From Diphasiastrum complanatum (lineage: Eukaryota; Streptophyta; Lycopodiopsida; Lycopodiales; Lycopodiaceae): a stretch of DNA of 64,000 nucleotides. Numbering within the stretch: position 1 is the first letter of the stretch; each line of letters starts with the position of its first letter. The translations under genes were made by a program, and so were the position numbers. The stretch covers positions 51,743,836 to 51,807,835 of the forward strand of contig CM055095.1 of assembly GCA_029204225.1 (NCBI GenBank). Direction: 5' to 3'. Below, one piece after another: positions 6,807 to 61,598 of the stretch. The notes beneath the pieces are model-generated. The model was given only the letters and a program-made list of their open reading frames with translations, was not told where the DNA came from and made no database searches.

Positions 6807-6841
6807 ACATTAGGAGAAATATGGGCTCAAAATGGGCCCTT
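6807..6841 (+). repeat. Left terminal inverted repeat
   Basis: Matches the reverse complement of 13650-13684 at 29 of 35 positions, including an uninterrupted 16-bp block ending GGGCCCTT and the outer 8 bp ACATTAGG. The base before it is C, giving CACATTAGG at this end, which recalls the CAC start of Transib and RSS ends; the other end has T there. Confidence 0.88.
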
Positions 6842-7222
6842 TAAGAAATTTCACTTTAGAGAGAGGTTACATAGAGAGAGAATGCAAACCGGTAACTTTT
6901 GGTCACGATTTTTTGAGTTTCCGGCCTTGCCCGACGTTTAACTAGTATAGTTAACTTCAGACAATAGCTAGTTTAGCATGAGATGTAATAACTTCTCTTC
7001 ATGCTCGTTCCAAAATTCGGGACTAGAGCTTTAAGACTGAAAATCTTGGTGTGCTCAATGCAAAAATTGAAGTGGGAGAGACAAAACTTTTGAAATCACT
7101 GTATGCTTATAGTGAAGGGACGATTTTTCAATGCGACATAAAGATTACAAAAGTAAGGAATGCTAGATCTATTCATATTGATTTACTGTAGGTAGATTCA
7201 TTTACATGATTGTAGCTTTAAC

Positions 7223-9843
7223 AATGGCAATGTTCCATTTGCATGTTGCTCTTCCGATGGAATGCACTCCAATTATTAAGAAAAATGCGAAAGTAGTAGA
7301 GAATGCTGCAACAATAGTTAGAGAATTGAGAATGAATAATCATATGAATATAGATTTGTGATGGATCAATTTATCCTAATGATCCAGCTACCAATTTGTG
7401 TCCAGATTTTAAGTCCGTAACTCATCTTCTCAGATATGTATGTGAAGGAAATAGCGGATTACTTGGATATTGTCAAAGGTTGCGTGATATTGGAATGCGT
7501 AGCATATCTTGTCTGAATCAACAATTACAATTTGCTAATCAACAATTACAACGTGCAAATAAACAATTGCTTCATTATGTGCAACACACTAGTGTTGAAA
7601 ACAATGCACTCAAGAATGCTATGTCAGAGTTGAATGCTACTATCACTACTCTTCGAGGATCAAACCAAGAAATGTTAGAATCCATGGAAAAGTTGCAATC
7701 CGAGAGTTTAAAATTTGTTGTTGATCTAAAAGTTATCAATAAGGCAATGATGAAAAGAAAAAGAAAGAGAGTACCGATGAAGAATATTGATGACCTATTT
7801 ACACATAGCGGCAATCAGAAAAAAAAAAATCCGAGCATTCAAGTATGTTGTCATCTACACTGTTTATTTGATTTGTATATGTCATTTAAGTTTGATTTGC
7901 AATTGATAACATGGATTATTTATTTATTAAACATAATTTGAGTTTCATATGTTTGTTACAGATCATGTTTGGTGGCAAAGAACTATTTAACAGATCATTC
8001 ATGCATTGGATCATCTTTAAGTCATGTTTTACCAAGAAAGTCAACAAAGGAAATGATAAAAAAATGCTCGGTTTGAAAAAATGAAAACTGTTTTGATTAA
8101 GGTTCAATCATACTTGGATGCGAATGTGATACAAGGTGCATGTGATGTATCTGGAATAAGCAGAAATGCTTATTCTACTTTTTTTAGAATAGTTAGAGAA
8201 GCTTTTTCCCAAGTGATGGTGAAGAAAATTAATCTTCTGCATCCATATCGGGTAAGATTAGCTAGAAACTTTTATAATGACGGAATGTTCAAATTAGTTG
8301 GCCAACCACTTCATATAACTGGATTATACAAATCAGAATATGGTGAGCTCAATTACAACGATTGCAATAATATTTTTCTTGATATTGAAAATGTTCTAAA
8401 ATACATTATTTGATTCTATAAACTAGACAAATATCAAGTAAATGGAAAGATCATTATTGTAATAAAATTGGATGAATCTGAAATCATCAAGGGTCAGAAG
8501 TTGGAACGTGTGAGTGTCACTTTGATGAACAAAATTTCAGATACAGATGATCGAACGTTTAGTGTTCAATCGGAAAATCACACATGGTGGTTGGCGACAT
8601 TCCAGGTATACATTTCAATTTTCATTTAGAATATCTATATTAACAATTCATACGTTACCAGTTTTTATTGACATGTCATACATTACTTGATTCTCTACAG
8701 GTCTTGAAAGAGGACCATAAAATACTATCATGGATATTTTTAAGAACAAATTATGACGAGATTATAAAGAGACATTTGGAGGGTGAGAAATTTACAATCG
8801 AAAACCATGGAAGTTTTCAAATTCAATGGCACCTTGCAGGAGATTTGAAAACATTAAAATGTATGTATAATGTCTCTCATGGGGCAACATCAAAACATCC
8901 ATGTCTTTATTGCATGAAGGATTGCTACAATATGAATTTGGGACGATCAACAAACACTGGCCCAACACGAGAAGCTGAAGATCCAAATATGAAAAGTATT
9001 CTGCCAATTCCATTAACATATGTTTATGCACATTGCATGCTGAGGTTCGTATTATTGAAAAACTAATTTACCTGCATATTCTACTAGATGGAATCATAAA
9101 CCAGAGTCAGTGGCTAAAGCAGCAATTAGGAGGTTGGAAATAGTTCTGTCAAATGCAAGACTACATAAAGGGAATGTCACGATTGAAAAAAGTGACAGAC
9201 TCTCCGGGAAAAAAGGAAACGTTCCTAATAAGCCATCAATTGGATGTGCTAAAGCAAGAAGATTCTTATCCAATCACACATGCAAAGAATCAAGTGTCAG
9301 ATACAAAATTTGGAGAGAAATTGTTCAAGCCACACGAACATTGTAAGGAAGTAATCGAGTGGAAAAGGGACAAGTGTGGACCAACTTAGACAAATTCATA
9401 GGTGTTATCAAAAAAGAAAATTTATCATCAGAAGATATGAGGACTTTGCAAAATCATTGCAGCACATTTGTAAAATCTGTACATGATTGTTGGGGAAAAG
9501 ACAGCGTTACTTATTACATGGTGCTAATCTATATCATTATCTAGTACTTTTCTCATTCAGGCTTATATTTTTTTCTACTGATGTAACTAATCAAAACTAT
9601 TGCTTGCAGCACATCCTTCTTCATCATGCAACTTATTTTGCAAAGGAATATGGGAGCTTAAGTATATGGTCATCACAAGGCATGGAAAAATCTCATTGGC
9701 AAGCAAGGGGAGCATTTCATAGAGCAACAAATCATGGATGACACAATTTAAGAAATAAATATTTAGTTCAACTTTTTCAGTGGTTTTACAGAAGAGCACA
9801 ATTTAGATATCAGGCTAAAAACTCACCAAGTATTACGATATTT
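7223..9843 (+). pseudogene. RAG1/Transib-like transposase, spliced and decayed
   Basis: Inferred exons are about 7223-7842, 7962-8605, 8701-9055, 9060-9520 and 9610-9843, mostly with good GT-AG borders. The first exon is a coiled-coil (repeated 'NQQLQ', heptads to residue ~120) with a Lys/Arg cluster. Later exons carry, in order: an Asp in 'VIKLDESE' (codon 8471-8473), an Asp in 'WHLAGDLKTLK' (8842-8844), the zinc-type 'CLYC' (8902-8913), 'AHCMLR' near 9030, and a Glu in 'SQGMEKSHWQ' (9685-9687). RAG1 shows the same order: D600, D708, C727/C730, a His-Cys and E962 in 'ASEGNES'. Stops (for example in 'ENVLKYII' and 'ATNHG') and shifts near 9055-9110 kill it. Similar large uncharacterised proteins occur in invertebrates, as I recall. 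The domain borders are my reading and no alignment was run. Confidence 0.55.
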
Positions 9844-9914
9844 TGAAAGGCATTCAAATTCATTACAAAAGAGAGATCTTTGTAATATATCAAAAATCTA
9901 TTACAAAAAATTAT

Positions 9915-10860
9915 TTAATTATCATCATCATCCTCTTCAAGATTCAGACGGATGGTATTGTCATGAAGGAATAATCTCCTTTCATATGGATCCAAAAATT
10001 CTAAATTTTTCCTCTTGCTCATATCAATGTAACTCGAATAAAGGGCCATTGTAGATGATCTTTTCGTAGTCTCATTGGGAGTATAACCCAATATCTTAAT
10101 AGCCAAGTCTCTCTTCACAAAAATTATTTTATATGTTTCTCTTGCGTATTTATGGCCTCCTAAACAAACTGATAATGATTTGATGGCCATAATGACAGTG
10201 GTTGCCTATGGATTATAAGATGAATGATATATACAAATCTCATTATTTTGAAAGTTTTTCAAATAATGAGATAAAGAAACATCTTTTCTCTCAGTTGATA
10301 CACCTCGGACGCCTCCATGTCTCATACCAAAGGCATCTATTTCAATAGCATCCTGTAGACGAGAAAAGAAAATAAATATTGAATGATATATAACACTGCA
10401 AAGTTTTTTCATAGGCTTTAGATTTTTCAATCATGGCCTCCAAGGCCTTGCCAGATTTCCAATTGCCATATTTATCATAATCTATCTAACTTTCAAGATC
10501 ATCATATGAGTAATCAACAATGTCAGAAAATTCTGATAAATTTTGAGCAAAAATTGAGAGGATTTCAAAAGACAAAAGCCATTCCTTTGATTAGAAGGCG
10601 ACATATTCTTTTGTGGAATGTACAAGGTCTTGAAAATGAATGAAACAAAAATTATCTATATCCAAAACATGAGTAATAATAATCTGAGAAAAATTATCAA
10701 GATAAGAAATTAAATTATAACGTTTCTCATAAACTAGCTTATCGATATCGAAGGGAGCAAACAAAATACTAGCAAAATACTCTAATTTGTCAGATGAAAT
10801 GTCACTGGCATTCAAAAAATCCATAAGTTTGTCATCTGAGGCCATGGAGGAACTAGCCAT
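9915..10860 (-). pseudogene. Minus-strand gene of the transposon, function unknown
   Basis: The start codon at 10858-10860 gives 'MASSSMASDDKLMDFLNASD', an acidic, helix-rich protein of about 90 codons to a stop near 10591. The same frame continues with tolerable composition to about 10400 ('SKAYEKTL'). After a splice-like AG near 10355 follows 'DAIEIDAFGMRHGGVRGVSTERKDVSLSHYL', one in-frame TAG (10206-10208), then a conserved-looking 'SLSVCLGGHKYARETYKIIFVKRDLAIKILGYTPNETTKRSS' and a Glu/Asp tail ending at 9915. A TATA-like box lies about 280 bp upstream. It converges tail-to-tail with the transposase, leaving about 70 bp between them. I recognise no family. It may be an accessory protein like those of other autonomous plant transposons, but that is a guess. 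Confidence 0.45.
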
Positions 10861-11140
10861 ATTGAATCCGATATCGGTTCAACGCGACAGATAAATATCG
10901 CTAGAGGAATAAAGCAAAGTGCGCGCGCTGATCCGATATGGTAAGGACGAGAAAGAAATTTCCGAAAAGCACTCGTCGGAAGTGGCTGATATCGATTCAG
11001 CGCGCCTGAATGAATACGAGCATGCACAACAAGGGATGGCGCGCGTCGATTCGATATCGCGAGAATGAAAAAAGAAAACAAGAAGGCTAGAGAGTTCAGA
11101 ATAAAAGATCACGGAATCGAAATATGGGAAGTCGGGCACA

Positions 11141-11150
11141 TATTTATAGC
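11141..11150 (-). promoter_or_regulatory. TATA box of transposon minus-strand gene
   Basis: On the minus strand this reads GCTATAAATA, about 280 bp before the start codon at 10860. The intervening leader holds four copies of the 18-bp motif. Position relative to a transcription start is inferred. Confidence 0.45.
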
Positions 11151-11159
11151 CAGTTCTTG

Positions 11160-12150
11160 TTGATCACAGCCATACATTTGTCAAATACGGAATTGAAATT
11201 TACAGCCTATATTATCCACCAATCAGAATGAGACAAATTTACACCTACATCGAAATACATTAAGTAGTCTATCACTAGATTCAACGAATCATCATTAGTC
11301 CTGACCCTAGAATCTGTACCTGCGCCGGAATACATTAAATAGACAATCACTAGCCTCCTAGAATAATCATTAAAAAAATTATAAACAAATGATTAATGGA
11401 TATCATTGAAAAATGTGTACGAGGAGAATTATTATTATCTCTCGTCCTATTTAAGTACCGTAAAGATGAAATTTTTTTTTTTGAGATACTGTTTATTCAG
11501 AACATTTTCATAAGTCTTTCATTATGCGTTCCAGTATCATTTTTCTATGTATGGGATATCGGATCAGCGTGCCTGACAGACGATGTATCTGCTGCATTTG
11601 GACTGGGCGCGTCGAATCGCTATTCCAAGACCAAAATATTATCGAAATTTTTGAAACTATTGGACCCTATGTGCATGATCAAAGCTTGATTCAGAAGACT
11701 CTTCATACTGGGGCCAAAGTTATGCAGAATCTATCGAATCAAGCTTTGATCATTCATATTTCGTCCAAAATCGGATGAGCGCGCGAAAATACATACTCTA
11801 GTTTTCAAATGCTTTAAATGCGCATTGATTAGCTATTGGGTGAAAATTTGGCCTTTGGAATTTTCCAAAATTATAATTATTGGATATAAAAAAGGTCTTA
11901 TATTTAAAGCTCAACATTGTCAATTTCAGCATTAAATGGTAGAAGTGTGATACCATACTTTTGTAGCACTAATTGTAGATTTGACCAGATTTTATTTGAA
12001 ATTAATTCTGGTTAATTCGATATGGACTAGTTATTTTGATGACTGATGGATATTTAGATTGATTTGATTGACAAGCCTATGAGTAATTTTCATCGTAATC
12101 CGAGATTTGGACATCCAAACCACCACGTTTGCAATCATTTCTGATTTTCT
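11160..12150. other. Transposon spacer between divergent genes
   Basis: AT-rich DNA between the two TATA boxes. It holds motif copies near 11554, 11605 and 11767 and another TATA-like 'cctatttaag' near 11449. A small frame at 11524-11778 (84 codons) has no recognisable similarity, so I do not call it a gene. Confidence 0.4.
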
Positions 12151-12160
12151 CTATATATAC
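12151..12160 (+). promoter_or_regulatory. TATA box of H3-like gene
   Basis: CTATATATAC lies 211 bp before the H3-like start codon, with three to four motif copies in the presumed leader between them. Confidence 0.45.
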
Positions 12161-12371
12161 TGGTCGATGACGCTGAAATTTTTTTTGCTTATAATTATTT
12201 GCTCCCATGCGATATCGATTTAGCACGCTCGAAAACAACTTCCTTCAATCCGTTACTACTCGCTTGCGCCCATCCGCTACTAGCTAACAGATTTGTTGAG
12301 CTCAGATATCGCTTTGACGGGTCTGATCCTGAAATCAACATTATCGCGCGCTGATCCGCTACTACACAATA

Positions 12372-12827
12372 ATGGCGCGGACCAAGCAGACAACACGAGG
12401 GCATTCAGGTGGAATACCAATTTCAGGTGCGGGTCAGGGAAATCCACAACCACCACCTCGTCCACCACCTCCTCCTCCTAGGCCAAGGGGTAGAAGAAGA
12501 GACCCACCCTGGCTCAAGGATACTCGGAAGCTTCAGAAGACAAATAATCTTCTGATTCCAAAATCTCACATACAGAGGTCCATTAGGCAGGTGACAAGAA
12601 GTCTATCTGCAGATGTGAGATGGACGGTAACGACAATTGAGGCGCTGCACACAGCATATGAGGATTTCCACGTGAAATTTTTTTCTGATACTATTGTTGC
12701 AGCTGTCCATGCCAAGAGGGTGACCATCATGCCCAAGGATTTCAACATTGTGTTCAGGCTTCGGGACACATATGACAAGTTTGCTGAATACTTTAGGTAC
12801 CAAATGCAAAAGCATATTCAAAGCTGA
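12372..12827 (+). CDS. Transposon-borne divergent histone H3
   Basis: An uninterrupted 151-codon ORF. It opens 'MARTKQTTRGHSGG' against canonical 'MARTKQTARKSTGG'. A Pro/Arg-rich tail follows ('PQPPPRPPPPPPRPRGRRR'), then a histone fold: alphaN 'RKLQKTNNLLIPKSHIQRSIRQV', alpha1-2 'LSADVRWTVTTIEALHTAYEDFHVKFFSDT', and the loop-2 signature 'HAKRVTIMPKD', identical to canonical H3. Numbering from Ala1, K4 is present but position 9 is Gly, 10 His and 14 Ile, and there is no Lys until residue 48. The equivalents of K56, K64, K115 and K122 remain; K79 is Ala and C110 is Ala. Tail length is within one residue of canonical H3, loop 1 has no CENH3-type insertion, and the C-terminus is about 16 residues longer. 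An intact frame next to broken neighbours suggests past selection or recent arrival. The nuclear role is inferred. Confidence 0.85.
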   Translation: MARTKQTTRGHSGGIPISGAGQGNPQPPPRPPPPPPRPRGRRRDPPWLKDTRKLQKTNNLLIPKSHIQRSIRQVTRSLSADVRWTVTTIEALHTAYEDFHVKFFSDTIVAAVHAKRVTIMPKDFNIVFRLRDTYDKFAEYFRYQMQKHIQS

Positions 12828-13020
12828 AAATGGTTGATGCAGAGGTATAAATTTTTCAATATCGATTCGATGCGCCCTTGTAGTTATTGTTTGGTTTATT
12901 TCCATAACATGCGCGCTGATCCAATATTCAATCAAATTTTTTTTGATATCGGTTCGACGTGCGCTTGTTTCCATTGTAGATTTTATTCTTACATCCTGCA
13001 CGTTGATCCGATATCTCATA

Positions 13021-13649
13021 ATGTTCAAATTTGGATTCTGCAGTTCTCCCAGCAGGTTGATTCTGTCAGCTGTGGTTGGTATACCGTATGCAATGCCAAA
13101 CACTTTTTTAATTGGCTTGCATTACATTGATATTTTTGATATATTCTTGGTATCCATTGATCTTCTGCATCTTTTCCATTGCAAATATTGATTGCATCAA
13201 TGGTTCCTCTTGGTCTCCGATTATGTGTAGCCAGTAGTCGAAAATACGAGTACGCAAGCTGAGATTGGAGAGAATGTAGAGATTGCGAGGTAGACCTAAG
13301 AATGACAAGAAAATGAGAGATAGAATGAAGAAAATGAGAGGTATACCTATGAATGACAAGAAGTTCCTTAACTACAAGGATTAGTTAACCACAATTTATG
13401 ACTAGTGACATCAAATCAACCTCGAGTGAACAATGACGGGCAACATAAGAGTATTTGGGCAGTAACTGTGGTCCAATCACAATTGTTTGTTCTGCCCGAC
13501 GGGATATTTGAAAATCACAAAAAATTGGCCGGGAAAGTTATATACAATTTTCGTCCATCAACCACTGTTACAATTCGTCACAGATGGACACCATTCATTG
13601 GGACACATAAGCGTTGAAAGCGCGCGAAGCCAAAAACAATATATTGACC
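13021..13649. other. Right subterminal region of the DNA transposon
   Basis: No convincing gene. Near 13381-13545 it contains stretches whose reverse complement resembles 6891-6960 (TAACTTT, ATTTTTTG, a CCCG(A/T)CG block, ACTAGT then GTTAAC), suggesting a longer, decayed subterminal inverted repeat. Confidence 0.4.
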
Positions 13650-13684
13650 AAGGGCCCATTTTGAGTTCTAATATCCCCTAATGT
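13650..13684 (-). repeat. Right terminal inverted repeat
   Basis: Partner of the repeat at 6807-6841. Immediately outside it the gypsy gag frame resumes, which supports this as the true boundary. Confidence 0.88.
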
Positions 13685-14555: not shown

Positions 14556-15205
14556 TGTGAAAGATTTCAGATCCTTAAGATCCAATCTACTTGAATGATC
14601 TTTGGTTAGAAAGAGAAATACACTACCAATTTCACCAATGTAGAAACATCAGCATCTACACACAATTTGAGATGCAAACACTAATACAACTTGATCAAAC
14701 TTGAATGAAGTGATTATGTACTGTTGCTGTCCATACAAAACCAGCAAGCTACTGTATTTCACACGTGTGGATCCAAAAATAGCAAATATAGATCATTCTA
14801 CACATAGAATTGCAAGCAATCACCAAGATAGTGCACCAATGGATAGTAGAACCCAAGAGAACCATGTATAAGCATGAAATGAGATAGAGAAGAGAGAAGA
14901 TGACTCTCTCCACGAGTTAAATCCTTTTATAGCAGGTCCAAACCCTATTTGGCCACTTGGCTTTCCCACCAAATTGCTAACCCTACCAATTTTGGGTCTA
15001 GATTCAATGTACCCAGCTTATTCAAATTGAATCTACTCAAACTTGCATTCTATCTTTCCCACACTTTCAAAAAGTGTTTATTCAAATAAAATTTAGACTA
15101 ATGAAATTTGAAAAGTCAACCTCTAAGTCTAAAACAAGTTTTGGCCTCAATATGTCAAATATGAAAATATTGCAAAATGTGATGAAACTAGTTGAATCTT
15201 TCACA
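14556..15205 (-). mobile_element. Copia 3' LTR (left)
   Basis: Bounded by TGTGAAAGAT and ATCTTTCACA, a perfect 10-bp inverted terminus. Next to it, at 15206-15216, the minus strand reads a purine tract (AAGAGGGAG) that would prime plus-strand synthesis. Confidence 0.92.
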
Positions 15206-15218
15206 CTCCCTCTTCAAC

Positions 15219-15822
15219 TAGTTTTAGCACAGACTTTGATAATACTCCAAGTGAAGTCCTATGCTTCATGAACAAGTCTTTTCCCAATGCTTTGGTGAAG
15301 ATATCAGCTACACATTCCTTTGAAGACACATGTTGAAGCTCCACCTCCTTTGCAATGACTCGCTCCCTCACAAAATGATATTGTATCTCAATATGCTTGC
15401 TCCTAGCATGAAAGATAGGATTGGATGCCATTCTTTGGGCTGATTGATTGTCACAAAAGATGATTGGGCTCTCTGAAAAATCCAGCAAGTGAAGATCCTT
15501 GATCATCCTTTTGATCCATACCATCTCCTTTGTGCAATGTGTAAGAGCTTTGTACTCGGCCTCACTAGATGACAATGAGATAGTGGCTTGTTTCTTTGAC
15601 ATCCATGATATAGCTCCATCGCCTATGAAAATACAATAAGAACTAATGGATTTTCTATCCATTATATCTCCAGAATAGTCCGAATCTGAAAATCCAACAA
15701 GGTTAGGTGATAATCCCTCATACAATATGCCAAAATCTCGAGTTCCAATGATGTACCTCAAAACTCGCTTCCTAGCTTCCAATGCTCCTAGCATAGTTTT
15801 TGCCAATATAACTTTGATCCAT
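15219..15822 (-). pseudogene. Copia RNase H domain
   Basis: The minus-strand frame carries 'ARKRVLRYIIGTRDFGI', 'GFSDSDYSGDIMDRKS', 'SSSEAEYKALTHCTKEMVWIKRMI', 'FCDNQSAQRMASNPIFHARSKHIEIQYHFVRE' and 'VADIFTKAL', the standard copia RNase H series, complete to its C-terminus next to the 3' LTR. The frame is intact; it is marked as pseudogene because the upstream RT that should be joined to it is replaced. Confidence 0.9.
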
Positions 15823-16823
15823 CATAAGAATGTAAAAATGTGACTAGAACATGAAGAATCAAATAGAATGTAAATGAAATGATTCCACCATGCTTCCAAC
15901 TCTGAACTCCCTGGAAAAATACAGCAAACAAACAATAAATGTGAGTGATCAACTTTTGCTTGCATGTCTCCATCTCCTTTGTCCTTTGTTGCCTTGTATC
16001 CACCATGATACTCCATGAATGAGCCTCCATCTTCATCTTGCCACAAGAAACCATCAAACCTTGGAAATCCATGAGTAGGTGAGAACATAAATGATGCAAA
16101 TCCAGCACCACATGACTCCATAAACCAAGTAGTTTGCACTAGTCCATCTTCAAGATCTACTTGACACAAGAAAATGACCATGAATTCACCAAAAATTGAC
16201 AATCTCCAAGTATTGGCACCAAGTAGCTCAACACTTGAGAACTTAGCCATGGATGAGTGACATAATGAACCTCCAATAGCTTCATTTCCATCAGCAAAAT
16301 CAGCCAAGAATGCTAGTACAAATCCAACATCAAAACAATGCTCACCAATGTAGCTAGTTTTGCCATATCTTGACAATTTGCACACATCCACATGAAATTG
16401 CTCAAACATGAGATAGAACAAGTAAAGTAAACTTGAACAACACTTCCTTGCTGCTCCTTTGACCTTACTTGAGTCTTCAATATGCTGCAAAAATAGATCC
16501 ATAACACCCTTGCCAATTACCTCTCCTTTGATGCTCTTGACTCGTTCCAAATTGCCAACTTCTCTTTTGACTAGTTGAAGCGCTTTGAGATCAACCTCTT
16601 GATCTTCAACTTGATCATCAAAGTAATTGAACAAAATTTGTTTTCCAGATCCATTACTTGATTTTACAGCAAGACAACATCCATCCACTTGCATAGCTCC
16701 ATGTACACAAGAAGATCTTCCAAAAGAAGTTCCACTCTTCATAAGAGATCGATACTCAAGATCCATTGCTTCGATCCACTCCTCTTCTTTCCTTGCTTGA
16801 TCTACACTTGTAGGCTCATCCAA
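15822..16823 (-). CDS. Foreign ORF replacing copia reverse transcriptase
   Basis: A 333-codon open frame. The first ~34 codons are the genuine start of copia RT ('EEEWIEAMDLEYRSLMKSGTSF'). The following ~300 codons show no RT landmarks at all: no YVDD, no 'MDVKTAFLNG', no 'QAPRAWY'. Instead they read as an unfamiliar, Phe/Cys/Gly-rich sequence (for example 'CFDVGFVLAFLADFADGNEA' and 'GFPRFDGFLWQDEDGGSF'). Copia sequence resumes downstream just before RNase H. I do not recognise the insert. It may be captured host or element spacer that stays open by chance or by selection. The alternative, a highly diverged RT, is unlikely given the loss of every motif. Confidence 0.6.
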   Translation of the reverse strand: MDEPTSVDQARKEEEWIEAMDLEYRSLMKSGTSFGRSSCVHGAMQVDGCCLAVKSSNGSGKQILFNYFDDQVEDQEVDLKALQLVKREVGNLERVKSIKGEVIGKGVMDLFLQHIEDSSKVKGAARKCCSSLLYLFYLMFEQFHVDVCKLSRYGKTSYIGEHCFDVGFVLAFLADFADGNEAIGGSLCHSSMAKFSSVELLGANTWRLSIFGEFMVIFLCQVDLEDGLVQTTWFMESCGAGFASFMFSPTHGFPRFDGFLWQDEDGGSFMEYHGGYKATKDKGDGDMQAKVDHSHLLFVCCIFPGSSELEAWWNHFIYILFDSSCSSHIFTFL

Positions 16824-16855
16824 AGAGGTTAGGAAAGCAACATAATTTCCAGAAA

Positions 16856-17665
16856 CTACTTGCTTACCCTTTTGATCATATGTGAGCCTTGAAGGTACTT
16901 GTCTTTCTCTGATGTTCTCCTTGGCTTTTGACTTGATGAAGGTCCATCATCACCACCATCCAAAGTAGGATCCTTCTCATCAACATCAAGAATGTTAGAA
17001 CCATCTACTTTACCATCAATCATGCTTGAAGACACCTTTGGAATGTTTCCCTCATAAAAAATGACATCTCTACCAACAATCACTTTGTTAGTAGAAGGAA
17101 TGTAAACCTTGTAGGCTTTACTCACCTCACTATATCCAACAAAAATACCTCTTCTTGAAGATGGATCCTCCTTGGTCCTATCATGAAGAGTAATGTTGAC
17201 ATAGCATGTGCATCCAAAGGTTCTTAGAAAGTTGACACTCGGCCTCCTCTTGAATAGCATCCCAAAAGGTGTCCTTCCATTCAAAATAGCACTCGGCCAC
17301 CTATTGCACAAGAAATTGGCACACAACAAAGCTTGATCCCAAAATGGTTTGTCAAGATTAGCACTTAACCTCATAGCTTTAGCACTTTCACATAAAGTTC
17401 TATTCTTCCTTTCAGCCACTCCATTTTGTTATGGGGTCCTTGATGTTGTATACTCCCTCTTGATCCCATGCTCATCACAAAAGGCCTTTAACTTGTTAGA
17501 TATGTACTCATCACCATTGTCACCTCTCAAGCACTTGATCTTTGTGGAAAATTGGTTCTCCCTTTCATTCTTGAACTTGACAAAGACATCATACACTTCA
17601 TCCTTGCTCTTTAGTAGATAGATCCAACAAAATCTACTAAAATCATCAATAAATGTTACATACAT
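16856..17665 (-). pseudogene. Copia integrase core and C-terminus
   Basis: The minus strand reads 'TFIDDFSRFCWIYLLKSKDEV', 'LRGDNGDEYIS', 'CDEHGIKREYTTSRTPQQNGVAERKNRTL' (one TAA where the first Gln stands, near 17430), then 'FLRTFGCTCYV', 'GIFVGYSEVSKAYKVYIPS' and 'VIFYEG'. The catalytic D, D, E pattern is largely present (FIDDFSR, GDNGDEY, AERKNR). It is probably one frame with the gag-protease ORF upstream, split by a stop near 17750 and the stop near 17430. Function: strand transfer of copia cDNA. Confidence 0.88.
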
Positions 17666-17749
17666 CTTAGCTCCACTATTGCTAATTGTAGTAAATCCAT
17701 GAATATCCGAATGTACAAGTTGAAAAGGCTTTGTAGATCTAGAAATAGA

Positions 17750-19210
17750 TCAAGTATAAGGTAGTCTATGTGACTTAGACAAAGCACAAGACTCACAAAC
17801 ATGCTTGTCATTACTTAAGGAACTTGGAAGACCAATCACAACCTTCTTCCTTGCCATTACCTCCAATGACTTGAAGTTGAGGTGTCCCATCCTTTTGTGC
17901 CAAACCTCTTGAATAGAAATTTGCTCCCTTGCAACACATCCAACTTGGTTAGCAATAACACAAGCATCAAGTTTGAACAACTTCCCTTGCCTTTTACCTT
18001 TTCCAATCAAGACATCCTTCCTTTTGAACAAACAAGCATCTCCATCAAACTCCACCTTGAGGCCCTTACTTAGCATTTGACTCACACTAAGCAAATTCTT
18101 GGTAATAGATGGAATAAACAAGACATCCTCCAAATGAACATTCCTATTTGTAGAGAGAGAAATAGGAATTGTGCCAATCCCTTTGATTGCACACTCACCA
18201 TCATTGGCCGTGTAGATCACCCTCTTGTCATCTCCATATGCCAACAAAGAAGTGAAGTACTCTTTGTGAAAGGTCATGTGTGAACTTGCTCCACTATCAA
18301 TCCACCAAGGATCTAGATCTCCATCATTAGCAAGCATACATGAAGACATCACAAAAGCATCATCATTTGCATCTTGCACATCCAAACCATCCTCATCAAG
18401 AGTAAGATTACCTTGCTTGTCTCCTTGATCTCTCTTCTTCTTGTACCACTCACTTGCAAAGTGTCCTTTGATGCCACAATAGAAGCACTTGAGCTTTAAT
18501 CTATCCTTCTTTTTGCCACTTGAAGAAGCATCCACTTGATCTTGCCCTTTAGACCACTTGCTTTTGGTTTTGCCCTTGAATTTGCCCTTTGTGAACATAG
18601 CATCCTCTTGAAGTGTCGATGTAGATCCACCTCTTGCTTGAAGCCTATATTCCTCATTGATCAAGATCTCTTGAAGATCCATCAAACTTGGCAAAGTCTT
18701 TTGAATAGCAATACTTTGAACAATGTTAGCATGAGCATCCAACAAGCCATTAAGAATCACTTGAATAAGCTCTCCTTCCTTAATGCTTTCATCTATGCAA
18801 GCTAACTCATCATTGAATGCTTTCATTCTCAAAACAAAAGTACTTGGACTTTCTTCATTCTTTTGCAAACAAGAAAAGATTTGCCTTCTTAGAGTCAATA
18901 CTCTAGAAGTAGACTTGGATTCATAAATCTTCTTCAATGAATTCCAAGCTTCCAAAGATGATGTGCACTTACCAACTTCCTTGAGAAGTTCATTGGTAAC
19001 ATTCATCTTTATCATGTGTAGAGCCTTCTTGGCCCTCTTGTCATACCTCGATTGATCTTGTTGTGTTGCTGGTCTCTCCTCCAAACCTACAACAATATCC
19101 AAAACATCATTCATTTCAAGAAGTGACTCCATCCTCACTTTCCATAATGAATAGTTACTTGAGGTAAGTCTATCATTGGCTTCCAACATTACTCCAATTG
19201 AGGTTGCCAT
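17750..19210 (-). CDS. Copia gag-protease-pre-integrase polyprotein
   Basis: An intact 486-codon frame starting 'MATSIGVMLEANDRLTSSNYSLWKVRMESLL'. Residues 1-210 are the copia gag (UBN2-type) with 'YDKRAKKALHMIKMNV' and 'AWNSLKKIYESKS'. A zinc knuckle follows at about 245 ('CFYCGIKGHFASEW'), where the last Cys is replaced by Trp. The protease active site 'WWIDSGASSHMT' is near 305, then 'NLLSVSQML' and the pre-integrase 'WHKRMGHLNFKSLEVMARKKVV.GLP' with 'CESCALSKSHRLPY' at the end. The start follows the primer site by about 590 bp. The loss of the fourth zinc ligand may weaken RNA packaging. Confidence 0.92.
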   Translation of the reverse strand: MATSIGVMLEANDRLTSSNYSLWKVRMESLLEMNDVLDIVVGLEERPATQQDQSRYDKRAKKALHMIKMNVTNELLKEVGKCTSSLEAWNSLKKIYESKSTSRVLTLRRQIFSCLQKNEESPSTFVLRMKAFNDELACIDESIKEGELIQVILNGLLDAHANIVQSIAIQKTLPSLMDLQEILINEEYRLQARGGSTSTLQEDAMFTKGKFKGKTKSKWSKGQDQVDASSSGKKKDRLKLKCFYCGIKGHFASEWYKKKRDQGDKQGNLTLDEDGLDVQDANDDAFVMSSCMLANDGDLDPWWIDSGASSHMTFHKEYFTSLLAYGDDKRVIYTANDGECAIKGIGTIPISLSTNRNVHLEDVLFIPSITKNLLSVSQMLSKGLKVEFDGDACLFKRKDVLIGKGKRQGKLFKLDACVIANQVGCVAREQISIQEVWHKRMGHLNFKSLEVMARKKVVIGLPSSLSNDKHVCESCALSKSHRLPYT

Positions 19211-26060: not shown

Positions 26061-28652
26061 TCAAATTTTCAAGGAATGAACAATTGCAAACAGTTCATTC
26101 TCATAGGTACAATACCTAGACCGAGCAGGATTGAGTTTCTTACTTTCATAAGCCACAAGATGTCCATCCTGCATCAAAACAGCTCCAATAGCATAATCAC
26201 TGTCATCGGTCCTAACCACAAAAGCTTTATTAGGATCGCCAATGATTAGTATTGGTGCCGAAGTGACACTTTTCTTAAGCAACTCAAAACAATTATTCAT
26301 ATCCTCCGTCCACACCACTAGTGGACTCTTAGCCCTCCGGCTTAGCTTCTTATAGTCTTTCAAGGCCTGGGTAAGGGGAAATGCCAATCGAACAAATTGG
26401 GAAATATGCTGACGGAAAAATCCTACAAACCCCAAGAAAGACTTGATTTTCCAAATTGTGGTGAGAATAGGCCAATCAATACCCTCTGGATACGATCGGC
26501 CTCAATCCCCACTCCACGTTCGGAAATATTATGTCCCAAGTAGGAAAATTCCTTAGCAAAAAAGTCACACTTAGACTCCTTGGCAAAGAGCTTTTCCCTT
26601 CTTAGGATGTCCAAGACAATCCTAAGATGCTCTTTATGTTCTGCCAAAGTCTTACTGAACACTAGGATATCATCTAAGAATACCACTACGAATCTTCCCA
26701 AAATATGGCCTGAACAAATCGTTCATCATCTATTGGAAAGTTGCCGGTGCATTGGTCAAACCAAAAGGCAACACCAAAAATCCGTAGTGACCAAAGCGAG
26801 TTTGAAACCCGATTTTTGGTATATCTTCTGCCTTAATGCATACCTGATGGTAGTCCGATCTTAGATCTATCTTGGTAAAGTACCCAGCACCACCAAGATA
26901 GTCTATTAGATCATCCATTCGTGACAGTGGATATCTATTCTTAACGGTTACCTTGTTCGATTTCTTATAGTCGATGCAAAACCTTATAGTCCCATCCTTC
27001 TTGGCAACCAGAACCACTAGTGATGCCCAAGGAGACTTACTAGGTTGTACCCACCCCTTTTTTAGGTAATCATGGAAATGCCTACTTACCTCAGCCTCTT
27101 CCGATGCACTCATCCTATAAGGACGCTGTGCGATTGGAATTGCTCCAGGTATTAGGTCAATTTTATGATCAACTGTCCTTTTTGGTGATAAACCTACAGG
27201 AAGGTCTTAAAAAACATCATTGAATTCCTGCCTAAGTTCATTATAGGCTTCAAATTCTGTAGTGTTCTCACTGGGTATATTCATGGCATTTATGTTAAGT
27301 TCTTCATCATTGCAACAAATGATATCATTATGAAAACATAAATAAACTTTAAAATCAGAATTCTTCATAATAGAATTAAGTTCCTGTTTAGAATAAGGGT
27401 TAACATTTTTAGTATCAACACTTAAACTAGCCATGATCTTAATAAAAGAATTCTCATGCATAAAAGATAAAGATTTCTCAACAAAATCAATTCTCAATGA
27501 CTTGTTCTTATCAAACTGCCATTGTTGCTCGAGAACAATATCTACATTAGCTGATGCAACAACATGGAATTCTAGTTTTTCATAATAATCCTGAATGTGC
27601 AATTCTACATCAGGAACAACAAAACCCATCAAATCGGAATCACTTTCTGATTGTCACACGATATTTTTTCTCACTTTTTCTGGTAAAAAGGTTTAGCGTC
27701 TGCACCAAATTTACATTAATAAAGTTATGAGTGGATCCCGTGTCAAAAAAGACATTAACAACTGGATCATTAACTTTACCTTTAATGCAAATAAGGTCAT
27801 TAGGTCCAAAAACTAAAGAACTAAGGAAACAAGCATTTATCTCATTACGATTACCTGAGGTTGAAGCTTGTTTTTTGATGCAATCACATGCAATGTGACC
27901 CTCGCCATTGCACTTGAAGCACAGATTCTTCTTACGAGCTTCAGCTTTATCATTGTCACCTTGATGGTTTTTACAGTTTTTCTTGGTTTTCTTAGGATTG
28001 TTGGAATTGGGATGTGTTTCACTAACAGCTTTCCTATCCTTCCTCTTAAATTGAAAACCTTTTTTCTGCTCATTAGGCTGTTGACCCCTAGGTGGCTTAG
28101 GTGTGTCATCAAAGTATTTTGCAGCCCTAATAGCATCTTCTAGGGTTTTTGGATGGTTCCTACAAACATCCACTTGATAATCTTTTGGTAACCCATCAAT
28201 GAATATTAACATTTGTACCTTAGGCGGAATGTCACTATAAAGTGGATTCAGGTACTCATGAAAATCTTGAATAAATGTTCTAAATCTTTATTCATGGTTA
28301 GATGACTCAACTTTTGAAAGTGTTCATAGTCATCAAGGAACATGGTGACAGTGGATAACTTTTCAGATTCAGGAAATTGGTTCATGGCAAAGTATTTGTT
28401 TCAAACATTTAGCCAAGAACTTACCGCTTGTAAGTTCATATCTTTCTTCTTCCCCTTAAACACTTTTAAGGGAGGTGGAACTACATGCTTCTCCTGATTG
28501 ACTAACCTAGACTCTAAGTCTTGGTTTCTTTGATTAGTTTTAAGAAGCTGCTTATTAGTGGCTTGAATTTGTTGGTATAAAAGTTCAAGAGCTTGTGTCA
28601 CATTGGATGGGTTTGATAGATCAAATGTTGGGTTTTCATTTGTTTGATCCAT
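26061..28652 (-). pseudogene. Second Ty3/gypsy, gag to RNase H
   Basis: Minus strand. Gag begins 'MDQTNENPTFDLSNPSNVTQALELLYQQIQATNKQLL' (28652) and breaks near 28400. It continues with 'LIFIDGLPKDYQ', a CCHC knuckle 'CFKCNGEGHIACDC' (about 27920), the protease site 'VFFDTGSTHNFI' (27760), and a linker to 27207. RT follows at 27113-26730: '[32 protein letters not shown]', '[13 protein letters not shown]'. Then 'VVVFLDDILVFSKT' (26690) and RNase H 'APILIIGDPNKAFVVRTDDSDYAIGAVLMQ' with 'ENELFAIVHSLK' at 26061. It ends abruptly inside RNase H; no integrase or LTR is seen on that side. The series fits a chromodomain or Reina-like class, but the diagnostic part is missing. Confidence 0.92.
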
Positions 28653-54936: not shown

Positions 54937-57900
54937 CAACATCTCAGTTGAGTTTAAAGTCTACGCTATACATGGAACATACCTCCATGATAGTATCAAC
55001 AAGTAAAAACTTTTTACATAACTTCATCCAAGCCAAGTTTAGCTCTAAAAGTTTCAAACTTTTCCTTACTTAGAGCTTTCGTAAATACATCAGCAAGTTG
55101 TAACATTGTAGAACAATGTGTAATACTTATATCTTCATATTGTAGCTTTTCACGCACAAAGTGATATTTCACTTCAATATGCTTTGTTCTCATGTGAAAA
55201 ACAGGATTCTTAGCCAACTATATTCCACTTTGGCTATCACAGAAAATAACAGTAGGATGTACCTACTTCATGGCAATCTCACTCAACACCTTACGCAGCC
55301 AAACAGCTTCCTGAGTAGCAGAACTTAACGCTTTATACTCAGCTTCTATAGAATTCTTGCTAGACCATGAAAAACAGCCACTACCAATATTAAAAGTATA
55401 CCCTGTAGTTGGCTTTCTATCATCTACACTTCCTGCCCAATCAACGTCAACATAGCCTTGCAACCTAGGTAAAGCACTTTGTTTCTTATAGACCAAGCCA
55501 AGGTTACGTGTGCCCTTCACGTACCTCAATATCGTCTTCGCTGCTTTCCAATGGTCCATAGTAGGTGATGACATAAATCGACTAATCAAGCTCACAACAT
55601 AGCAGATATCAGGACGAGTAGTCGTAAGATAAATCAAACTCCCGACTAGTTGAAGAAATAATGTAGCGTCAACTTGACCACTATCATCAACACGAGACAA
55701 CTTCTTACCAGCTTCACATGGAGTGATGAAGGTTTGCACTCTGTCATGTGGAATCTCTCTAATATCTCGCGTACGTACTTGCTTTAATATAGCCTGATGT
55801 CATTGCCATTCTGCCATACTTCGACTCCCAAGCAATAGTGCATAAGATCTAAATCTGTCATCTCAAATTGCTTGCACAAGTTGCCTTTCATAGAATGAAT
55901 GAGATTCTCATCATTGCCCATGATAATAATTGGTTGATTCGTCCATACCATGCACGCGGCGCTTGCTTGAGGCCATAGAGTGCTTTGCGTAGCTTGCATA
56001 CCTTTTGCTCTTGCTCCTTCGCAATGAAGCCTTGTGGTTGAACCATGTATACTTCCTCCTCCAAGTCACCATTCAGAAATGCGGATTTCACATCCATTTG
56101 ATGGATCTTCCACCCAAAATGAGATGCTAAGGTGATGATAAGGCGTAGCATAGTCCACTTAGCCACGGGAGCAAATGTTTCTTCGTAGTCAATTCCTTTG
56201 TTTTGCTCATAAACGTGCCTTATGCTTTGCTATTGTGCATCCGCACGAAACTTTGTTCTAGACACCCATTTGTTGTCAATGGGTTTCTTTCCAAGTGGTA
56301 AGTCAACTAGCTCCCACGTACCATGCCTGTGGATAGACTCCATCTCCTCTTCCATTGCCCTTTGCCACTCTTTGTGATCCTTTGCCTCATCAAAGGTTGA
56401 TGGCTCTCGACACTTCAAAACGTCACTCATTAGGTCATAGTTCACATGATAGCGATTGGGAGGCTTCCTTTCCCGCGTTGATCTTCTCACTTCTTCTTGC
56501 GTGCTAGATCCTGGTTGCTTTAGCTTTGCATCTTTCATGATCTTTTCATACCACTTAGGTACCTTAGACTCAGGTGATACACTTCTTGGAGAGTATGTGT
56601 CCCAAGGAGTGTCCGAGTAATGTCTCTTACTTCCAACAAGTTTCTCCTTCGTTGCTCCTATCGGCAAGTACCTTGCCCTAGGCTCCTCTCATACTCACCC
56701 TCTCGAACTTCGTCTTCGTGTGCATCAACCTGTGGAGCATCCTCTTCGTGTTCTTCTTCCAAGATTGTGGGAAGTCTTTTGATGCTTTCAAAACCTGGAT
56801 GGTCTTTATCCTCAAACCTATGCAACTCATCAAAGATAACATCTTTGCTAAGACACCTATACGCCTTTGTCCTCTCATCATAACCGACAAAGATACACTT
56901 GATCGCTTTGGCATCAAGCTTGATTCGCTCCTCCTTTGGCACATAAGCCCTACACCCAAAGATTTGAAACTTGTCAATCTTTGGCTTCATTCCTGTAAGT
57001 GCCTCTTCGGGAGTCACATTTGGAACCGCAACTGGAAACTCCTGTTTTGCAAGAACGTTGCCACATTGCACACTTCCGACCAAAGAGAATTTGGCAAGCC
57101 CATTTGCTTCATCATGGAGCGTGCCTTTTCCATAATGGTTCTATTCTTCCTTTCTGCTACACCATTACTATGCGGCATGTGAGATTGAGTGAATTGTCTT
57201 TTGATGTCATGTTCCTTGCAAAAGCCCTCAAAATCATCAGATTTGTATTCGCCCCCTCTATCTGATCTTAGCACTTTGATTCGTGCATCCAGTTGGTTCT
57301 CCACTAAAGCCTTAAACTCCTTGAAGTGAGCAAAAGTGTTAGATTTCTTCTTCAAGAAATAAATCCACGTCCTCCTGAGTAATCATCCATGAAAGTCATA
57401 AAATAATAGGCTCCTCCCATCGACATGGTCTTCATTGGGCCGCACAAGTCACTATGAATGAGTTCAAATGGTTTCTTGGCTCTCGCAGCTCCACCTTTCT
57501 CCCTATGATGCTTCCCCATAATGCATCCTTCACATATGGCGTGATGATCATCCTATAGTGCTGGTAATCCTGTTACCATCTTCAGCTTCGCCATCAATCT
57601 TAAGCTCCCATAGTTTAAGTGGCCTAATCTTCTATGCCACAATTTCAGATTGTGATGTTGTTGAAGTAGCCAAACCATATTCACCTGGTTTTGCAGCATC
57701 CAATTTGTGGAGGCCACAGTTTATATCCCGATATTCTTTTGCTACCACCTTGTAGTTGTGGTCCATATCTTTCATCAGGCATCCATCCTTGACAAACTCA
57801 ACCTTAAGATGTTGATTTGCCATCACACCAACCAAAAGCAAACTCTTTTGAGTCCAGGAACATAAAGCACATTGGGAATGTTCTTGATCTTACCATCAGG

Positions 57901-60060: not shown

Positions 60061-61598
60061 ATGAGGAAGATGTATTTTCTCACAACAAAAACTCCGGTTA
60101 TAGATGATGTTCAGGAAGATATAGGTCCATGTGATACAGCTTCTACACCAAGGGTGAGCACACAGGTGGATCTTGGTAAACGTAAGGAAAGGTCAAGAGT
60201 ATTTGATACATATTCTCCTTCTACGTCACCTACAAAGAAATTACCAAGATGGTATTGTGAGACTATACAAGATAGTCAAATGTTGGATGAGGGAGAATCG
60301 AGTCAACAAGGAGCTAAGAGATTGACACGATCAAGTGGATACTATTGTGAAGCTAGTGGAGAAACACATTATGCATTTATGGCTTCAGTATTGGATTTTG
60401 AGGATCCTTTATTTTATGAAGATGCTGCTAAGGAAAAGTTTGGAAGACTGCTATGGATGAGGAGTATTGTTCTATTATGAGAAACGAGACATGGGATCTT
60501 GTTGAACTTCCAGCAGGTAAGAAACCAATTGGTTGCAAGTGGATTTATAGAACCAAGTTCAAGTCTGATGGTTCTATAGATAAGTATAAAGCCAGATTAG
60601 TAGCCAAAGGATATGCTCAGAGGGAAGGAATTGACTATGAAGATACTTTAGCACCTATTGCTAAAATGAGTACTTTGAGGAGTGTTTTGGCGATTGCATC
60701 TCATTTTGGATGGGATATTCAACAAATGGATGTCAAGAGTGCTTTCTTGAATGGTTACCTTGAAGAGGAGGTTTATCTAGAGCAACCTTAGGGTTATGAG
60801 GTTGAAGGCAAAGAGCACTTTGTTTGCAAGTTAAAGAAAGCATTATATAAGTTGAAACAAGCGCCTAGAGCATGGTATATACGCATCAACAATTATTTTT
60901 TGAAGCAGAATTTTCATAAAAGCATGTCAGAGTCAACACTATATATTATGAAAGATTCAGATGACATAGTCATTATTGTTCTCTATGTAGATGATCTTAT
61001 TATCACAGGGTCAAATAAGTCACTAATAGAGAAAATAAAGAACAATCTTTCACAGGAGTTTGATATGAAAGATTTGGAGAGACTTCAGTATTGTTTGGGT
61101 ATTGAGGTTTGGAGGTCAAAGAAAAATCTTTTCATACCACAAGCAAAGTATGCAAGAGAGTTACTCAAGAAGTTTAACATGCTTGATTGGAAGTCCATTT
61201 CTACACCTTATGATCCAGGTGTAAAGCTTACAAAAGAGGAAAATTTTGAAAGTGTGAATGAAACACTTTATAGGCAGCTTGTAGGTAGTCTTATCTATCT
61301 AATGACTACTCGACCAGACAATTCATATGCAGTGGGTATGGTGAGTCAATTCATGTCTTTACCAAAAGTTTGTCATTGGAAAGCAGCAAAGAGGATTTTG
61401 CGTTATGTCAAAGGGACACTCAGGTATGTCATTTATTATGGTAAAGGAACAGACATAAAACTTGAGGGTTTTGCTGATGTTGACTGGGCAGGAAATGCAG
61501 AAGATAGAAGATCGACTACAGGATATACATTTAATCTTGGAACTGGAGCTATATCTTGGAGTAGTAAAAGCAACCAACAATTGCTTTATCTTCTATAG
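60061..61598 (+). pseudogene. Copia linker and reverse transcriptase
   Basis: An acidic Ser-rich linker (60061-60450) leads to RT: 'ETWDLVELPAGKKPIGCKWIYRTKFKSDGSIDKYKARLVAKGYAQREGIDYEDTLAPIAK' motifs from 60480, 'QMDVKSAFLNGYLEEEVYLEQP' then TAG (60789), 'QAPRAWY' (60860), the catalytic 'LYVDDLIITGSN' (60985-61015), 'DLERLQYCLGIEVW', and 'LVGSLIYLMTTRPDNSYAVGMVSQFM' to the RNase H start. One stop and a shift at about 61590, so nearly intact: the best-preserved RT in the window. Confidence 0.92.

Follow-up and report, generated by a model that had tools for sequence, protein, structure and literature searches.

Why would a DNA transposon carry a gene for a histone H3-like protein, and what does that gene encode? 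The question is raised by a 64,000-nucleotide stretch of the genome of Diphasiastrum complanatum (Lycopodiaceae; assembly GCA_029204225.1, contig CM055095.1, positions 51,743,836 to 51,807,835 of the forward strand), which we call the window and number from its first letter. An inverted-repeat element at 6808..13683 contains an open reading frame (ORF) that the initial annotation took for an intact, stand-alone H3 variant, the nucleosomes of which could not carry silencing marks. Here, we report that the window copy has lost DNA within this gene and that other copies in the same genome carry the H3 fold at the start of a longer predicted protein with a protease-like C-terminal region.

The H3-like ORF in the window ends at a deletion junction

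The ORF runs on the + strand from an ATG at 12372 to a stop at 12827 and encodes 151 amino acids (aa). It matches the Pfam Histone family (PF00125, E 2.3e-20), and its closest solved structures in the PDB are H3.2 chains (E 3.8e-19). The hallmarks listed by the initial annotation (an ARTKQT start, G9, H10, I14, and the word HAKRVTIMPKD) are borne out by the sequence together with these matches, as is the absence of any lysine after K4 up to the lysine of WLKD. From the fold onward the protein is one residue shorter than H3, and ~60% of its residues differ from H3. CENH3 proteins have a lengthened loop 1; the window protein aligns with H3.2 without a gap across loop 1 and so has no CENH3-type insertion there. 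Close annotated relatives were absent among the 120 protein matches listed, all of which were generic H3-type proteins with 31-45% identity.

We searched the same genome with the protein and scored the best 150 matches (window included) of 9098 first-look candidates. All 150 had E <= 1.5e-74, with possible duplicates among those on small contigs. Leaving the window aside, not one of the other 149 extends to residue 151 of the window protein, the furthest reaching residue 148. Twenty copies, each taken with flanks of 6 kb on the upstream and 2 kb on the downstream side, were read at length (near-duplicates L010/L013 and L011/L012 included). In all 20, homology to the window stops at 12795/12796, within codon 142, and in 18 of them a stretch of 517-1190 additional bases intervenes before it picks up again at 12797/12798. 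Because 18/20 copies carry these extra bases, the window copy is an internal deletion derivative and, as far as seen, a private one. Its final residues, YQMQKHIQS, arise where an exon elsewhere translated as PNAKAYSKLKMVDAE is read in the wrong frame; the ORF is therefore not the intact stand-alone gene it had been taken for. The parts of the gene left in the window are as follows.

12372..12797, + strand: H3 domain, codons 1-142 (Pfam and PDB matches)
12796..12798, no strand: deletion junction, with 517-1190 bases missing relative to 18/20 copies
12800..12844, + strand: remnant of predicted exon 2, protease region (PNAKAYSKLKMVDAE), out of frame with the ORF
13044..13124, + strand: remnant of predicted exon 3, Cys motif (FSQQVDSVSCGWYTVCNAKHFFNWLAL), from comparison with other copies

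The family product is predicted to join an H3 fold to a Ulp1/SENP-like region

An H3 region that ends shortly after helix 3 is found only in the deleted window copy. In most fetched copies, the frame, wherever it is unbroken, extends past the H3 fold through a linker that is basic and rich in proline and serine to a region reading GDNVGGGAIQYWMEFF; after predicted introns follow NDHWSLYVLSL, a helix, SSQQVDSVSCGWYTVCNAKHFF, and a last exon. From these sequences, we predict a four-exon protein of ~550 residues, comprising H3, the linker, and a Ulp1/SENP-like C-terminal region. The copies read thus carry the H3 fold as the N-terminal part of this predicted protein, and the earlier view of a free H3 variant, built into nucleosomes as the family product, is not supported by them. 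The predicted intron 1 begins with GT in 16 and ends with AG in 14 of the 20 copies: L015 and L025 have other sequence there, L011 and L012 lack the intron, and L027 and L028 have lost its AG. Exon 2 contains a CA repeat, length variation of which shifts the frame in many copies.

The order of motifs, HW and then Q-x5-C-G, matches that of Ulp1/SENP (C48) proteases, whose catalytic residues are, in order, His, Asp, Gln, and Cys. Among copies that have the relevant exons, the His is kept in 14/16 and the Cys in 16/17. The top PDB matches for the C-terminal region are to SENP8 (E 0.11-0.23); in one search, OTU1 came next (E 1.0-1.5). An hhalign comparison with a C48 protein of the same genome places both motifs in register (E 0.002). 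The alignment score to that protein was 51, a value that 18 of 5000 shuffles equalled or exceeded; against 68 proteins (48 transposase relatives and 20 matches with H3 folds), the highest score was 44. We consider it very probable that the C-terminal part adopts a C48-type fold; the sequence evidence for C48 identity is moderate.

PF02902 has three matches in the same genome, none of them near a listed H3 copy in the exon-by-exon search. A search with the full-length protein, scored among the 8000 candidates sharing most words, gave 20 matches. One protein, P0172 (653 aa), has the C48 domain (PF02902) first and the H3 fold (PF00125) last; because this domain order is reversed, we did not take it as support. 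It stands as a second, differently ordered combination of H3 and C48, and P0176, P0177, and P0182 are long proteins with an H3 fold at the end.

The H3 region was constrained while the element spread

To describe the H3 tail, we compared 58 sequences (57 copies and the window). K4 and H10 are present in 58/58, Q5 in 57/58, I14 in 56/58, and G9 in 54/58. Positions 5-47 are lysine-free in 49 sequences and contain one lysine in the other 9; of the lysines modified in the H3 tail, K4 alone is kept, without the later ones (K9, K14, K18, K23, K27, and K36). HAKRVTIMPKD is kept in 41/58, and the H3 region is stop-free in 30 and interrupted by a stop in 28.

We then compared the ratio of nonsynonymous to synonymous substitution rates (dN/dS) between terminal and internal branches, using parsimony ancestors and an assumed transition weight of 4; the copies were drawn from the 150 best protein matches, which favors conserved ones, and 3 near-duplicates of 61 were dropped. 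For the H3 region, terminal branches carry 245 synonymous and 556 nonsynonymous changes (dN/dS 0.95) and internal branches 72 and 93 (dN/dS 0.54; Fisher p 0.0009 vs terminal). A tree of exon 1 without the window gives 0.95 terminal vs 0.62 internal (p 0.011), while two wrong frames on this tree give p 0.42 and 0.98. The fold alone falls from 0.87 on terminal to 0.55 on internal branches (p 0.02). Hence, the ratio near 1 that the initial annotation had contemplated does not describe the internal branches, on which the H3 region is under purifying selection. Since the ratio is lower on internal than on terminal branches, we conclude that the H3 part was constrained during the spread of the element and that single copies decay afterwards.

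The H3 gene is a regular part of a RAG1/Transib-like element

The borders of the element were defined by its ends and their flanks.

6808..13683, + strand: whole element, 6,876 bp, CATTAGG...CCTAATG (inverted repeats and ends common to other copies)
6808..6841, + strand: left terminal inverted repeat (inverted-repeat search, left ends of other copies)
13650..13683, - strand: right terminal inverted repeat (inverted-repeat search, right ends of other copies)

The terminal pattern, with 3 mismatches, occurs 627 times vs 0 in the reversed control. In searches with the end sequences, we scored the best 40 of 1411 and the best 40 of 1696 first-look candidates. An alignment that reaches the query end proves no border by itself, because the queries stop there; differences between flanks do. 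Beyond CCTAATG (13683), the right flanks differ in 11 of the 12 right-end loci read, with L079 and L084 sharing one flank; beyond CATTAGG (6808), the left flanks differ among the copies read, except in the pairs L010/L013 and L089/L090, which look like duplicated segments. Because flanks differ between copies, 6808 and 13683 are true element borders. Of the 40 right ends listed, 6 lie within 8-9 kb of an H3 copy in the correct order and on the correct strand, where 0.014 would be expected by chance, and 7 of the 40 left ends do so; each count includes the window's own end, and the left set includes one duplicated segment. This recurrence of element ends beside H3 copies makes the H3 gene a regular part of the element. 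The placement of the ORF inside an inverted-repeat element, as first proposed, therefore holds, with the same borders at other copies. A one-off retrocopy, or a gene missing from other copies of the element, is ruled out by the 150 scored genome matches and by the same ends beside H3 genes elsewhere.

Transib/RAG-type transposons are expected to produce a 5-bp target-site duplication. None was seen at the ends of the window copy. Among the terminal-pattern matches listed, none fell at the one other copy tested. At L079 and L084, a right end lies near an inverted left end with identical flanks at both loci, a nested insertion that was probably duplicated.

Upstream of the H3 gene are pieces of a transposase.

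7354..7938, + strand: open frame with a coiled coil, matching the N-terminal part of the transposase homolog P0122
8060..9738, + strand: transposase remnants in several frames (KLDESE from 8465, AGDLKTLK 8836, PCLYC 8899, GMEKSH 9679), kept in homologs

P0122 shows 34% identity over 99% of the query. Its predicted structure folds like RAG1/Transib, to which its best fold matches belong, though a fold match alone excludes no other family. The transposase homologs contain D-D-E motifs with CxxC. The initial annotation had called the neighboring transposase broken; stops and frame changes agree with that description, but some of the interruptions look like introns when compared with P0122. Pfam scans of the transposase pieces and eight homologs returned only DUF7794, in a fern protein, and no MULE (Mutator-like element) domain was found in scans of element pieces and homologs. 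The fern protein, P0168 of Adiantum nelumboides, joins DUF7794 to part of the transposase and is either a gene-model chimera or a case of exon capture.

Two further features complete the element.

10870..13015, no strand: 13 sites of an 18-bp motif, with inverted pairs at 52-53 bp (10870/10923, 10988/11041, 11555/11607, 12858/12911, 12945/12998)
~9855..10780 (approximate), - strand: opposite-strand ORFs seen in other copies (L010, L018, L023, L027), no Pfam match

The motif and its threshold of <=5 mismatches were chosen from the window itself, where 13 sites fall in the element and 2 in the other 57 kb; block-shuffled versions of the element have a mean of 0.19 sites and a maximum of 1. Some pairs are upstream of the H3 gene and others within the intron that precedes the Cys exon. 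Across the 20 copies, which have 1 to 16 sites each at similar positions, the spacing from a plus to a minus site is 53 bp 62 times and 52 bp 10 times, and 53 bp is about five helical turns. In 24 modules (from the window, L018, and L010), conservation is 0.80 and 0.69 in the arms vs 0.47 in the 35 bp between them, a comparison that favors the arms because they served to place the modules. The paired motifs recall the targets of VANC proteins, reported to be short motifs that these proteins bind and that cluster in the non-coding DNA of the element, also within introns (PMC5735166, in the portion available). The minus-strand ORFs are perhaps a third gene of the element. The window is rich in mobile elements: ORFs at 15201-19210, 26730-28212, 55263-56990, and 60061-61598 are, judged by eye from their motifs, presumably retrotransposon-like.

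A possible accessory factor acting on chromatin

From the anatomy of the element, we infer that the encoded protein would act on chromatin. Our favored reading, to which we give a probability of roughly 40%, is that the H3-protease fusion is an anti-silencing accessory factor by which the element stays active. Its H3 domain would pair with host H4 or with H3 chaperones and thereby place a protease for SUMO- or ubiquitin-like proteins on chromatin, where it might strip SUMO-like modifiers from silencing proteins. The fusion's own tail could not take K9 or K27 marks and would still be readable at K4, and the paired motifs may be docking sites for the fusion or a partner, much as VANC motifs are. 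A more specific version, in which the fusion enters or docks on nucleosomes at the 53-bp inverted motif arrays, strips SUMO there, and so counters silencing independently of VANC, we regard as rather doubtful.

A number of observations weigh against this favored reading. Among the copies examined, no complete working copy was identified: exon 1 is open to its end in 2 of 60 copies, with a third open as far as fetched, and one of the open copies, L028, is without the AG of intron 1. By eye, an Asn occupies the expected position of the catalytic Asp, a Pfam scan of the spliced reading gives no Peptidase_C48 match, and the hhalign probability for the C48 protein of the same genome is just 13.6%. 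An AlphaFold model of exon 1 (L028) is poor (predicted local distance difference test, pLDDT, 39) and was not used as proof. In the selection test, the drop for the tail alone is not significant (p 0.19), and the tail compared in a wrong frame falls as well (0.96 to 0.61, p 0.11); the linker shows no constraint (1.58 terminal vs 1.22 internal, p 0.11); and the N part of the protease drops weakly (0.82 vs 0.64, p 0.08). The link between protein and motifs is drawn by analogy only.

The same fusion might serve transposition itself, with H4 pairing tethering the transposase to nucleosomes and steering insertion while the protease works on SUMO-modified partners. The H3 gene lies on the transposase strand of the same element, the transposase family is RAG1/Transib-like, K4 is kept throughout, and RAG2 is described as reading H3K4me3 via its PHD finger (PMC8355894, in the portion available). 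Yet no PHD domain appears in the element pieces scanned with Pfam, and the motifs cluster around the H3-protease gene, not at the element ends, and we judge such a role unlikely. Were the H3 domain a decoy that soaks up H4, H3 chaperones, or H3-tail enzymes, silencing would be weakened generally and the protease would be incidental. This would fit the retained tail start and fold and the clearer selection on the H3 region than on the N part of the protease; the retention of the protease His and Cys argues against it, and strong expression would be required. We consider a decoy quite unlikely.

Fragments of host H3 and Ulp1 could also have been captured long ago and amplified with the element as functionless passengers, gene capture by plant transposons being described as common (PMC13317346, in the portion available). 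Stops in 28 of 58 H3 regions and a terminal dN/dS of ~0.95 are what such a passenger would show, but on internal branches the ratio for the H3 region is much lower than on terminal ones, in the true frame only, and K4 and H10 are never lost in the 58 sequences; a neutral passenger seems distinctly improbable. The reading closest to the initial annotation, a separate H3 variant whose nucleosomes on the element could not be marked, draws on the 151-aa H3 fold that the window copy encodes without a protease. With 0/149 other scored matches aligning to the end of that protein, the missing DNA present in 18/20 copies, and ~60% of residues different from H3, we hold it to be highly improbable.

If the more specific version, with docking at the motif arrays, is true, a RAG1/Transib-like transposon has built its own chromatin tool, unmarkable at K9 and K27 and with the K4 reader epitope kept. 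The family may show a new route by which a transposon acts on host chromatin. The fusion of an H3 without silencing lysines to a Ulp1-like region indicates that chromatin is the target, and with it the role of such a domain in transposons could be tested on one protein.

Comparison with known systems

Ulp1 regions in transposons of the CACTA and MULE types are already known (PMC2528002, PMC13317346; both in the portions available). New here are the fusion to H3, a carrier of the RAG1/Transib-like kind, and the pairing of the motifs; among the open-licence papers listed, none described a transposon with a histone-protease fusion or a mobile element with an H3 domain in a multi-domain protein. 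In grapevine and rice, CACTA-ULP elements carry a Ulp1 region on a cut-and-paste transposon, as the present element appears to, but with a Tnp2 transposase, and the available portion of that account does not mention histones (PMC2528002). From plants, 39 Transib-like proteins have been reported (PMC9435367, portion available). The present element resembles Transib/RAG elements in the predicted fold of the transposase homolog and in the D-D-E motifs with CxxC, and differs in beginning with CATTAGG and in adding an H3-protease gene. With canonical H3, the protein shares the ARTKQT start, the histone domain, and HAKRVTIMPKD; unlike H3 or CENH3, it has in the family a predicted long C-terminal fusion and almost no tail lysine after K4.

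A close parallel may be the VANC-type genes with Ulp1 (KIU) in Arabidopsis VANDAL and Kaonashi MULEs, for which the role of the Ulp1 domain in plant transposons is said to be unknown (PMC13317346, portion available). They share with our element the setting of a plant DNA transposon with a Ulp1 or Ulp1-like accessory gene and clustered short motifs (PMC13317346, PMC5735166), and an anti-silencing role of the fusion would perhaps parallel theirs. Those elements are MULEs, and the available text of PMC13317346 does not mention histones, whereas here H3 appears fused to the Ulp1-like region beside a RAG1/Transib-like transposase; and VANC21 motifs are described as arrayed in one orientation (PMC5735166), whereas those of the present element form inverted pairs at 53 bp.
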